64,000 nucleotides of DNA from Candidatus Aminicenantota bacterium (GTDB lineage: Bacteria; Acidobacteriota; Aminicenantia; Aminicenantales; Saccharicenantaceae). The DNA lies in contig JAPKZD010000025.1 of assembly GCA_026393975.1 (NCBI GenBank), forward strand, positions 62,001 through 126,000. Direction: 5' to 3'. Position 1 is the first letter of the stretch, and every line of letters begins with the position of its first letter. Below are positions 56,593-61,280 of this stretch, in pieces. The notes under the pieces were generated by a model. That model was not told the origin of the DNA. It was given only the letters and a program-made list of their open reading frames with translations, and searched no databases. Made by a program: the position numbers and the translations under genes.

Positions 56593-57275
56593 TCGCTTAT
56601 GTGACGGGTGCCGCGGTCGTTCCGAGGAGGCGCGTCCGTTCGTTCCCGTATCTTGAGCGCGAGATCGCCGGCCGATTTCCCAGGTTTGGCCGATTCGACG
56701 AGTACACGCAGATCGGCTGCGCCGCCGTCTTTTCCGCGGCTTGGCAGGCGGGGTTCCGTCCGGGAAGCCCACTGCGGAACGTCGGCGTCGTCCTGTCCAG
56801 CCAATATGGATCCTTCGAGACCGATGAGGCCTTCTATGCGACGACGTTGGCCGGGCCGGAGTTGGCCAGCCCGAACCTCTTTTCGTATACCCTGCCCAAT
56901 ATTGTGATCGGCGAATGCGCCCTCCAGTTCGGCTGGACGGGCCCGACGTATGTCCTGGACGGCCAAGGAGGGCGAGGGGAAGCGGCTCTGGCTGAAGTGG
57001 CCGCCTACCTTAAAAGCGGGCGTTCGGAGGCCATGCTGGCGGCATGGCTGGAACTGCGGCCGGAATGGGCCCCTCGTGGAGCGGAAGGCGCCGCGGTGAT
57101 CGTCATCGAAACGGATCGGAAAGGACGCCGGCCTCTCCTGGAGATGGACCTGTCGGGGGAGGGCCGATTGGCTTTGGCCTCCGGAGAAAAGATCGTGACG
57201 ATCGACGACATCCTGAGCGCTCTCGGGGATCCCGGACTGGCCCCCGGACTTCTGGAGACGCGAGGCACGCCATGA
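56589..57275 (+). CDS. Half-size ketosynthase-like chain-length-factor protein (no active Cys)
   Basis: A 228-residue protein resembling only the N-terminal half of a ketosynthase, the form seen as stand-alone KS N-terminal proteins (Ketoacyl-synt_2) in aryl-polyene clusters. NLFSYTLPNIVIGECALQFGWTGPTYVL aligns with the KS region before the nucleophile, but the nucleophile elbow reads DGQGGRGEAAL, with no Cys and a Gln nearby, as in chain-length factors. The His-containing C-terminal half is missing. It probably shapes the acyl pocket of ketosynthase 2. ATG 56589 overlaps the KS2 stop. Confidence 0.8.
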   Translation: MIAYVTGAAVVPRRRVRSFPYLEREIAGRFPRFGRFDEYTQIGCAAVFSAAWQAGFRPGSPLRNVGVVLSSQYGSFETDEAFYATTLAGPELASPNLFSYTLPNIVIGECALQFGWTGPTYVLDGQGGRGEAALAEVAAYLKSGRSEAMLAAWLELRPEWAPRGAEGAAVIVIETDRKGRRPLLEMDLSGEGRLALASGEKIVTIDDILSALGDPGLAPGLLETRGTP

Positions 57276-58495
57276 AATGGAAGCTTATCTATCCGCGATG
57301 GCGTAAGCTCGATCGCCAGACGCCGTTCCATCTTCCGCCGCACGGCCCCGTCGTTTTCGCCGCCGCCGTCCCCGCCGGAGTGGAGATCTCATTCGTCGAC
57401 GCCAACGTCGACGTCTTGGTCCTGGACGACGAGCCAGATCTGGTCTGCTTATCGATCATGCTAACGGCGCAACTCCCCCACGCCTTGGAGATCGCGGCGG
57501 CTTATCGCCTCCGCGGCATCCGCGTCCTGGCTGGCGGGATCGCCGTCATGCTCCACCACGAGGAGCTCCGGACTTTCTTCGACGGTGTCTTCCTCGGCGA
57601 GGCCGAGGGGCGGATGGAAGAGGTCGTCCGGGACGTCGAAAACGGGACCCTCAAGCCCGTCTATGACTACATGAACCGGTATCCCGATATCGCCCTTGTG
57701 GGCACGGCGAGGCGTGAGATCCTAAACCGGAAAGCTTACGTATATCGCAACATCCGCATGGCGGACCTGGTCCACGCGTCGCGGGGCTGCCGGTTCAATT
57801 GTTTCCCATGTTGCACGGGCTATCTGGGCGGCCGGATGTTCCGGCCGCGCCCCTTGGACAAGGTCGTGGAGGAGATCGCCTCCATCGAAAATGACCGGCT
57901 GTTCCTCGTCGACAATTCTCTGGCCCAGGACAGCCGCTGGGAGGAGGACTTGTTCCGGGCCATGATCCCCCTGGGCAAAAAATGGGTCAGCCATCCGATC
58001 GAGGAGGACGACCGCATCCTCGACCTGGCCTTCCAAGCCGGCTGTTGGTACGTCTACCAGGCCGTGTTCGACACTTCGGAGACCATCCGCCGCCGCATCA
58101 AGCGGTACCATGACCACGGCATCGGAGTCGAGGCGACGGTCATCCTGGGAACGGACGATCACGACGTCGACGCCATCAAGCGCCTGGTGGACTTTCTCCT
58201 GGAAGTCGAGCTGGATCTTGCGGAGTTCACGATTATGACCCCGTTCGCCCGGTCGCCGATACGTGCCAAGCTGGCCTCCGAGGGACGGATCCTCAGCGAC
58301 CGCTACGAAGACTACACCTGCGACCGGGTCGTCTATCAGCCCCGGCGCATCACTCCGGAAAACCTCCGGAAAATGTATGACTACGCCTGGGACACGTTTT
58401 ACTCCGGTGAATCGCAGGAATTGAAGATGGGCCGGCTTTACCTCAGCGTTCTGCGACGGGAGCGGACGTTGCCGGGCCGGAGAAAGGACGGCTGA
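57272..58495 (+). CDS. B12-fold radical SAM protein 1
   Basis: A 407-residue protein. The N-terminal ~125 residues look like a Rossmann B12-binding domain (FVDANVDVLVLDDEPDLVCLS, then VLAGGIAVML and FLGEAEG) without the DxHxxG that anchors the lower ligand, as in most class B radical SAM methylases. The radical SAM motif is HASRGCRFNCFPCC with Cys173, Cys177 and Cys180. It may methylate or rearrange the acyl chain. It overlaps the CLF-like gene by 4 bases (ATGA) and ends 3 bases before the second radical SAM gene. Confidence 0.85.
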   Translation: MKWKLIYPRWRKLDRQTPFHLPPHGPVVFAAAVPAGVEISFVDANVDVLVLDDEPDLVCLSIMLTAQLPHALEIAAAYRLRGIRVLAGGIAVMLHHEELRTFFDGVFLGEAEGRMEEVVRDVENGTLKPVYDYMNRYPDIALVGTARREILNRKAYVYRNIRMADLVHASRGCRFNCFPCCTGYLGGRMFRPRPLDKVVEEIASIENDRLFLVDNSLAQDSRWEEDLFRAMIPLGKKWVSHPIEEDDRILDLAFQAGCWYVYQAVFDTSETIRRRIKRYHDHGIGVEATVILGTDDHDVDAIKRLVDFLLEVELDLAEFTIMTPFARSPIRAKLASEGRILSDRYEDYTCDRVVYQPRRITPENLRKMYDYAWDTFYSGESQELKMGRLYLSVLRRERTLPGRRKDG

Positions 58496-58498
58496 GCG

Positions 58499-59854: not shown

Positions 59855-59855
59855 C

Positions 59856-61280
59856 ATGAGTGGGATCACCCTCGTTCAACCCTGCGGCATGAACTGGGAG
59901 CCGCAACGAAGGGATATGTCCCGGATCGCCAATATCATGCCGCCGATCGGCCTTTGTTCTCTGGCGGCATGGGTCGAACGGCACGGGCACCGGGCCCGGA
60001 TCCAGGATTTCTATGCCTATCCCGGGGAGGAATCCCGATTCCTCGAGAGCCTCCCGTCGGAAAGGCCGGATTTCGTCGGCTTCTCGGTCACGACGTCGAG
60101 CTTCCCGGACGCTGTCCGCCTGGCGCGGATGGTTAAGGCGGTTCCGGGGATCCGGACGATTTTCGGCGGCGTGCACGTATCTTCGTTGGCCGAGCGGCTG
60201 ATGCAGGATTATCCCGAGATCGACCTGGCCGTGGCCGGGGAGGGAGAGGAGGCCCTGCGGGAGATCCTGGACAAGGACGGGCGGCCGCCGTTCGGGACCG
60301 GAGGGATCTTTTATCGGGCGGACGGGAAGATCTCGTCCAGCGGAACGGCCGGGCGCATTCGCGATCTCGATTGCCTGCCGTTCCCTGACTACGGCAAGCT
60401 CGCGGGGTTTCCAGGACATTACAAGATGCCGCTTTTCAGCTATCCCCATGCTCCGGCGACGATCGCGGTGACCAGCCGCGGCTGTACATACGCGTGCAGT
60501 TATTGCGACCGTTCCGTATTCGGACGTTCCTACAGGTATCACAGTTCCGAATACCTCATCGAGTGGTTCCGTTTCCTGCACAACCACTTCGGGATCCGGC
60601 ACCTGAACCTCTATGACGATAACCTGACCAACCACCGCCCGCGCGTCCTGGCCTTCTGCGAATCTCTGGCCCGGTCCGGCCTGCGCTTGAGTTTCAATTG
60701 CGCCTCGCGGGCCGAGCTCCTCGACCGCGAGCTCCTCCGGGCCCTCAAACGCGCGGGATGCTGGATGATCAGCCTGGGCATCGAAAGCGGCGACTGGGAG
60801 ATCCTGCGGAGACACCGCAATCAGCCGGCCGACCTGGAGACCATGCGGGAACGCATCGGCCTCATCCGGGAAGAAGGGATACGGGTCAAGGGATTGTTCA
60901 TGATCGGCCTCCCCGGCGAGACCGAGGCCAGCCTGGCGCGGACACGAGCGTATATCCTCAGCCTTCCTCTGGACGATTTCAACCTGACCAAGTTCACTCC
61001 TTTCCCGGGCGCGCCGTGCTACCCGGACCTCGAACAGGACGGCGAGTTTCGGGAGGACTGGGCGCTGGCCAACTGCCTGAATACCCTATTCGTCCCCCGC
61101 GGCTTGACGGCCGAACGCCTTGACGACATGTTTAAAGACATCTATAGGAGCTACTATCGGCGCTGGCGCGTTCTGGCCGGCTACATCCCCATGATCTGGC
61201 AATCGCCCGACAGCTGGCGGCGGTTCATTGGGAACCTCGGCTCGTTCCTGGAACTGTGCCGCGACTATCGGGGATCATGA
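59856..61280 (+). CDS. B12-fold radical SAM protein 3
   Basis: A 474-residue protein. The N-terminal Rossmann domain starts NIMPPIGLCSLAAWVERHGH, with IFGGVHVSSL and VAGEGEEALRE; the radical SAM motif is TSRGCTYACSYCDRS with Cys210, Cys214 and Cys217, followed by SLGIESGD and IGLPGETEAS. It is the most canonical of the three. It starts one base after the previous stop, so all three are made together. Three non-identical B12-type radical SAM enzymes imply several C-C bond-forming or methylation steps on the product. Confidence 0.87.
   Translation: MSGITLVQPCGMNWEPQRRDMSRIANIMPPIGLCSLAAWVERHGHRARIQDFYAYPGEESRFLESLPSERPDFVGFSVTTSSFPDAVRLARMVKAVPGIRTIFGGVHVSSLAERLMQDYPEIDLAVAGEGEEALREILDKDGRPPFGTGGIFYRADGKISSSGTAGRIRDLDCLPFPDYGKLAGFPGHYKMPLFSYPHAPATIAVTSRGCTYACSYCDRSVFGRSYRYHSSEYLIEWFRFLHNHFGIRHLNLYDDNLTNHRPRVLAFCESLARSGLRLSFNCASRAELLDRELLRALKRAGCWMISLGIESGDWEILRRHRNQPADLETMRERIGLIREEGIRVKGLFMIGLPGETEASLARTRAYILSLPLDDFNLTKFTPFPGAPCYPDLEQDGEFREDWALANCLNTLFVPRGLTAERLDDMFKDIYRSYYRRWRVLAGYIPMIWQSPDSWRRFIGNLGSFLELCRDYRGS

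Follow-up and report, generated by a model that had tools for sequence, protein, structure and literature searches.

Three adjacent B12-type radical SAM genes

The window analysed here, a stretch of 64,000 bp, covers bases 62001–126000 of contig C24 (JAPKZD010000025.1) from the draft genome (2.95 Mb, 95% complete) of a Candidatus Aminicenantota bacterium, an uncultured organism of probably anaerobic lifestyle. It contains three consecutive genes encoding radical S-adenosylmethionine (SAM) proteins with B12-binding-type domains, designated rSAM1, rSAM2, and rSAM3:

57272..58495, + strand, rSAM1: 407 amino acids (aa); radical SAM protein with a Rossmann domain of B12 type; unnamed family; nearly always next to rSAM2; closest solved fold AprD4
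58499..59854, + strand, rSAM2: 451 aa; TIGR04072 "rSAM_ladder_B12", lipid biosynthesis B12-binding/radical SAM protein
59856..61280, + strand, rSAM3: 474 aa; B12-binding/radical SAM, BchE-like; unnamed family

The rSAM1 start overlaps the preceding gene by 4 bases, and the intergenic gaps of 3 bases (rSAM1–rSAM2) and 1 base (rSAM2–rSAM3) agree with the open reading frame (ORF) positions given in the first-pass annotation of this DNA; the equal expression proposed there from this spacing is plausible. Its description of three clearly different proteins with intact CX3CX2C motifs and N-terminal Rossmann domains was also borne out. The motifs CRFNCFPC (rSAM1), CPFDCAYC (rSAM2), and CTYACSYC (rSAM3) were read in the ORFs, Pfam B12-binding matches were obtained for all three (E = 1.1e-10, 2.9e-17 (PF02310, 63.1 bits), and 4.1e-22, respectively), and each protein shared about 21–26% identity with orthologues of the others. 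The Pfam Radical_SAM domain was recognized in rSAM2 (E = 4.1e-13) and rSAM3 (E = 1e-22). The rSAM1 match (E = 1.6e-4; 22.4 bits, below the 29.5 cut-off) is low because of sequence divergence, since the AlphaFold2 model of this protein is confident (mean pLDDT 91.7) and has a full B12-type radical SAM fold, aligning with complete enzymes of this type over about 370 residues. The term "B12-fold", taken from the Pfam domains and the structure match, is a statement on fold, and cobalamin binding is putative.

The comparison with characterised class B radical SAM enzymes was based on curated hidden Markov model scores in place of a tree with those reference sequences. rSAM2 belongs to the ladderane-cluster family TIGR04072 (474.2 bits, cut-off 360; profile positions 2–442 of 443) and has the CX3CX2C motif and B12-binding domain of that family. 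The best curated match of rSAM3 was BchE, which likens it to the BchE/HpnJ/HpnR group, but at 168.8 bits against a cut-off of 481 it lay well under this and every other curated B12 radical SAM cut-off (HpnR, HpnJ, and others). The tetraether synthase Tes model NF045702 matched none of the three among the matches listed at E <= 0.001. rSAM1 likewise reached no curated B12 radical SAM cut-off, its best score being 54.8 of 251 (TIGR04013), and similarly weak curated matches were found throughout the 65 members of the rSAM1 alignment (beyond the first member, E-values only, not scores against cut-offs). The nearest fold to the rSAM1 model was that of AprD4, a radical SAM 1,2-diol dehydratase (Z 32.3, root-mean-square deviation 2.5, 373 aligned residues, 18% identity; next structure Z 26.7), which was also the best profile match (E 1.8e-9). 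With 27.1 bits against the AprD4 family cut-off of 500, rSAM1 shares the fold but lies outside the family. AprD4 is the sole known dehydratase of the radical SAM superfamily according to a 2017 review (PMC5461906). By fold and profile, rSAM1 thus appears nearest to a radical dehydratase rather than to a methylase.

These matches bear on a possible, though not probable, reading in which the three proteins are cobalamin-dependent C-methylases that branch a polyene or its head group, in place of the ApeB methyltransferase of aerobic aryl-polyene clusters. All three have B12-binding-type domains, no ApeB-like methyltransferase was seen in the cluster, and sub-cut-off likeness links rSAM2 to tryptophan 2-C-methyltransferase and BzaD, and rSAM3 to P-methyltransferases; methyl transfer by rSAM2 is therefore possible. 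However, no methylase cut-off was reached by any of the three, rSAM1 is nearest to the non-methylating AprD4, and TIGR04072 is common to clusters of anammox bacteria, whose ladderane chains are unbranched. No protein of the trio attains the cut-off of a characterised methylase, and the methylations, cyclisations, or couplings that the first-pass annotation suggested are putative.

Conservation of the arrangement among relatives

The rSAM2 sequence was scanned against 84,980 species genomes (one genome per species), which gave 404 stretches (tblastn, E <= 1e-3), not every one of them an orthologue. From these, the best 80 were taken with 10-kb flanks, and all locus counts below refer to these 80; rSAM1 or rSAM3 was taken as present in a locus at >200 bits. 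The taxa comprised Desulfobacterales, Geobacter and other deltaproteobacteria, Nitrospirae, Omnitrophota, Verrucomicrobia, Kiritimatiellae, Lentisphaerae, Planctomycetes, an Elusimicrobia bacterium, and others. rSAM1 was found within 10 kb of rSAM2 in 65 loci, the gap being shorter than 150 bases in 63 of them and 168 and 883 bases in the other two. Among the 63, a single 873-aa frame in an Elusimicrobia draft genome (L125:8735-11356) spans rSAM1 and rSAM2, although one indel could also yield it. Identity to the window proteins was 56–79% for rSAM1 across phyla (median 61%) and 35–69% for rSAM2. rSAM3 was present in 21 loci, in 18 of which the three genes were adjacent in the order rSAM1-rSAM2-rSAM3, so that the arrangement recurs in several phyla more than by chance. 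Other cluster genes were also frequent, namely relatives of the third ketosynthase (KS), KS3 (61 loci), the GT2 glycosyltransferase (60), and the LpxL-type acyltransferase (69); the KS co-occurrence advised as a check in the first-pass annotation was thereby found. That annotation would have given up its view for three unrelated housekeeping subfamilies without conserved synteny; because the synteny is conserved, with rSAM2 in TIGR04072, the trio is not considered housekeeping.

Three is not the maximum, as the genomes of loci L083, L109, and L112 contain an extra B12-type radical SAM gene downstream of the chain-length factor (CLF) CLF3, accompanied in L083 and L109 by an AMP-ligase and rSAM3. 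In a Desulfamplus locus (L188:12159-15442, G249:C1), an ammonia-lyase gene adjoins an rSAM3 relative split in two overlapping frames. Four loci (L226:5580-8780, L219, L220, and L227) have 2-hydroxyglutaryl-CoA dehydratase/activase-type genes near rSAM3.

The cluster has a sparse and scattered distribution in the window's own phylum. With a limit of E <= 1e-60, rSAM2 was detected in 3 of 247 genomes and was absent from the two same-genus and five same-family genomes listed. The closest named relatives of the trio came from metagenome-assembled genomes of an Acidobacteriota bacterium (L060) and a Candidatus Aminicenantes bacterium (L061). The set of radical SAM genes had been called uncommon; this holds only relatively, given the 404 stretches related to rSAM2 and the similar clusters reported in 2009 from anammox bacteria, Desulfotalea, Geobacter, and Pelobacter (PMC2649909). 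One scan of viral contigs gave no match.

A tree of rSAM1 was built by a quick method without bootstrap from 24 of the 65 cluster-borne loci, the window, two further rows from the phylum Planctomycetota, and three rows from another family (f11) of the window's own phylum. All of them grouped in one clade (SH-aLRT 100). Phyla were intermingled in the tree, and horizontal transfer of rSAM1 across phyla is therefore suggested. In family f11, rSAM1 was found at 64–65% identity in three genomes and as contig-edge fragments in two more; since the f11 rows nest within the clade, this stand-alone rSAM1 looks derived. In one f11 genome (L043:9955-13087, G002:C34), a same-strand gene that matches the tetraether synthase model NF045702 (486 bits, cut-off 450) is separated by 58 bases from the rSAM1 relative (64% identity), a pairing not seen in the other two f11 loci (L042 and L014).

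The likeness of rSAM1 to AprD4, the substrate of which is an aminosugar (PMC5461906), together with the GT2 relatives in 60 loci, is consistent with radical enzymes that act on the sugar or head group and not on the acyl chain, rSAM1 being an AprD4-like sugar dehydratase beside the glycosyltransferase. This alternative appears improbable, as rSAM1 occurs without GT2 in L042, L043, and L014, and its likeness to AprD4 is remote.

The surrounding gene cluster

The first-pass annotation had placed the trio in a lipid pathway, which agrees with its position inside a lipid/polyene type II synthase cluster and with the family of rSAM2. The genes all point in the + direction over about 22 kb (48398-70185), past the window end, and most of them overlap or lie a few bases apart:

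48398..49144, + strand: FabG-type ketoreductase; FlxB flexirubin model 312 bits, cut-off 340 (second-best match)
49242..50750, + strand: FAD-dependent, phytoene-desaturase-like oxidoreductase
50753..51985, + strand: ketosynthase KS1; Cys-His-His motifs present; start probably near 50747
51982..52263, + strand: acyl carrier protein (ACP) 1; predicted start
52260..53084, + strand: PlsC-type acyltransferase, ApeD-like
53107..54975, + strand: pseudo-radical SAM/SPASM protein with two hotdog (dehydratase-like) domains; CX3CX2C lost, seven auxiliary cysteines kept; predicted start
54972..55457, + strand: 4HBT thioesterase, ApeK-like
55450..56592, + strand: ketosynthase KS2
56589..57275, + strand: CLF-like partner of KS2; Gln in place of the KS Cys
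61291..62547, + strand: GT2 glycosyltransferase with DUF2062 tail; first half of an ApeJ-like function; predicted start
62534..63424, + strand: LpxL-type acyltransferase; second half of an ApeJ-like function; predicted start
63488..63757, + strand: ACP 2
63754..64000, + strand: ketosynthase KS3, continuing beyond the window end
Beyond the window end, after KS3 (L002): second CLF-like protein, LolA, DUF3261, 995-aa LolA_like protein

The active-site motifs of KS1–KS3 are intact and the FabG motifs are present (read by eye). The best match of LolA was the flexirubin model LolA2_flexi, below cut-off. The 995-aa ORF after DUF3261 was considered as an MMPL protein and dropped, as it has only a weak LolA_like Pfam match and no predicted transmembrane segment.

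The aryl-polyene cluster of E. coli comprises, among other genes, KS, CLF, two ACPs, ketoreductase, dehydratase, thioesterase, lysophospholipid acyltransferase, glycosyltransferase/acyltransferase, LolA, and DUF3261 (PMC8253772). The window cluster resembles aryl-polyene (E. coli apeA-R) and flexirubin clusters in its KS/CLF pairs, two ACPs, ketoreductase, hotdogs, and thioesterase, as well as in the PlsC and glycosyltransferase/acyltransferase anchoring genes, LolA, and DUF3261, which covers most of the E. coli list; it differs in having three B12-type radical SAM genes and the pseudo-SPASM fusion in addition.

Relatives of the SPASM part of the fusion protein were found in 30 loci. In an alignment of 19 sequences, CX3CX2C was kept in 15 and lost in the window, L060, L136, and L139, while seven auxiliary cysteines were present in all 19 (C229, C247, C286, C289, C295, C298, and C316 of the window protein as cut for alignment). 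The intact relatives are mostly fused to one hotdog, whereas the window protein has two. Its model is of medium confidence (pLDDT 78); the first half matches PqqE/SuiB-type enzymes and the second half double-hotdog dehydratases or thioesterases. The window cluster thus seems to retain, as a pseudoenzyme, a fourth radical SAM protein (SPASM type) that looks active in most relatives.

Within the fetched loci, rSAM3 and an intact SPASM gene occurred in 21 and 23 loci, respectively, and never together (0 of 80, and 0 of the 43 loci whose flanks are complete; p = 0.001 for the latter in a naive Fisher test). A mutual exclusion was nevertheless dropped: the counts are not independent of phylogeny and reduce to 2–4 independent pairs, which is non-significant. 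A whole-genome test covered 39 genomes, drawn from the 59 loci lacking rSAM3, plus L060 as positive; 20 of the 39 have rSAM3 elsewhere (42–53% identity), among them 12 of the 23 in which SPASM is intact, often apparently on the locus's own contig beyond the 10-kb flank.

Possible starter genes were also considered. Downstream of the cluster, at 70247-75430 in extended coordinates (L002:11247-16430), lie four overlapping or abutting genes for one 2-hydroxyacyl-CoA dehydratase-type subunit (HGD-D), its ATPase activator (BcrAD), an ADP-forming CoA ligase, and an ApbA-type reductase. An anaerobic cinnamoyl starter from these genes is not claimed: there is a single HGD subunit, all scores are below cut-offs (HadB 192 of 750), and in the nearest relative the adjacency is lacking, with a BcrAD relative just 36% identical about 15 kb further on. 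Genes for a HAL-type ammonia-lyase occur in nine loci, with the MIO motif intact in all except the partial copy of L094. An ammonia-lyase starter was not used either, as none is found in the window cluster; the sole HAL gene of this genome is on a different contig, and its divergence from each of the complete cluster HALs is roughly equal. Upstream of the cluster, window positions 37191-44877 contain two GH127 beta-L-arabinofuranosidases and an alpha-L-arabinofuranosidase-like gene.

Relation to anammox ladderane clusters and proposed role

The hydrazine synthase alpha domain (PF18582) was searched in four genomes from the phylum of a Sedimentisphaerales record and was found in G340, G420, and G510, but not in G247. 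Each of the former three has a TIGR04072 member over cut-off. The gene order in G340 (labels from tblastn or by eye) is KS, short unnamed protein, ligase, SPASM radical SAM, TIGR04072, FabG, ACP, FabZ-like, methyltransferase-like gene, large MMPL-like protein, FAD oxidoreductase, and glycosyltransferase, which is the kuste3346-3335 order of PMC4790861 with TIGR04072 at the place of kuste3342. The anammox type II fatty-acid synthesis cluster (kuste3335-3352; Rattray 2009; Javidpour 2016) and the window cluster thus share a TIGR04072 member over cut-off, a FAD phytoene-desaturase-like protein, KS with a KS-like partner, ACP, FabG, hotdog, and GT2. In contrast, the SPASM enzyme (kuste3343 position) is intact there and degenerate here, a kuste3347-type methyltransferase and a kuste3344-type ligase were not seen in the window cluster, and the anammox cluster is without a close rSAM1 relative. 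In 294 genomes of the phylum searched at E <= 1e-40, close rSAM1 was absent from the hydrazine-synthase-bearing genomes and was found only in G444 (69%), G271 (68%), and G247 (61%), with a less close one in G285 (45%). In the G340 neighbourhood, the B12-type radical SAM protein has about 30% identity to rSAM1 and falls outside the well-supported rSAM1 clade. TIGR04072 and the SPASM enzyme thus appear to represent steps common to both cluster types, and rSAM1 is by descent no ladderane enzyme.

The presence of TIGR04072 in all three hydrazine-synthase-bearing genomes could also speak for ring formation, in which a radical cascade of the trio converts the polyene to linked carbocycles and a true ladderane-like product arises outside anammox bacteria; non-methylating B12 radical SAM enzymes are said to form rings or rearrangements (PMC13142503). 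We regard this as unlikely, as the three genomes hold just the roughly 30% identical relatives of rSAM1, and a study of Desulfotalea, a bacterium with related clusters, detected no ladderanes (PMC2649909). Heterologous kuste3342/3343 likewise gave no ladderane, although neither protein was detected (PMC4790861). Expression of "ladderane" clusters of unknown function, from bacteria not known as ladderane makers, was reported for the Cariaco Basin (PMC9902471).

We consider it probable that rSAM1–rSAM3 serve as tailoring enzymes in a pathway of the aryl-polyene/ladderane type, a highly reducing type II polyketide/fatty-acid route. In the proposed scheme, the KS/CLF pairs with the ketoreductase and dehydratase-like hotdogs, no enoyl reductase having been found in the cluster, would yield a conjugated polyene acyl-ACP. 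The GT2 glycosyltransferase and the acyltransferases would couple this to a lipid anchor, and transport to the outer membrane would fall to the LolA- and LolB-like proteins; the polyene product, its anchoring, and the substrate are inferred. rSAM1 and rSAM2 may act as a functional pair on one acyl intermediate, an ACP-bound or lipid-bound polyene. As a guess at the exact reactions, rSAM2 would perform the step common to anammox ladderane clusters, rSAM1 an AprD4-like radical step (hydrogen abstraction followed by elimination or rearrangement, not methyl transfer), and the BchE-like rSAM3 a further separable modification. A modified polyene glycolipid is the probable product, which need not be a ladderane.

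Several observations weigh against this assignment. An ApeH-type acyl-ACP synthetase/ligase, an ApeB-type ring methyltransferase, and an RND exporter (ApeM) were not found in 48398-75430, and the absence of an enoyl reductase was judged from annotated genes alone. rSAM2 scores 100 bits with the tryptophan 2-C-methyltransferase model and 169 bits with BzaD, both below cut-off. The likeness of rSAM1 to AprD4 is remote (18% identity; 27 of 500 bits) and may partly stem from similar size. rSAM1 stands alone, with no KS genes nearby, in the three f11 genomes, the idea of an rSAM3/SPASM exclusion failed in whole genomes, and no relative has a known product. The literature search, which covered titles and abstract openings with most subscription papers outside reach, retrieved no characterisation of these enzymes and no paper using the term TIGR04072.

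The cluster appears to be a variant of a known, functionally unsolved cluster type, the same enzyme set recurring in many distant bacteria. A more far-reaching and rather doubtful proposal is that rSAM1 founds an unnamed non-methylating family that forms a fixed pair with TIGR04072 and catalyses a novel reaction of anaerobes in which polyenes bound to ACP undergo radical dehydration, isomerisation, or ring closure; a large class of anaerobic polyene lipids in many phyla would then be defined by the pair, with the anammox ladderane pathway as one specialised branch.

Ladderane biosynthesis is a long-standing open problem, for which this survey sorts the common enzymes from the uncommon ones. 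TIGR04072 and the SPASM enzyme, which have long been regarded as candidates for ring closure, are common to many bacteria outside the hydrazine-synthase-bearing genomes and are therefore more likely general polyene enzymes, while rSAM1 marks the other side. Isolates with the rSAM1–rSAM2 pair appear to exist (Desulfamplus magnetovallimortis and Pontiellaceae B12227), and the product may therefore be searched for directly.

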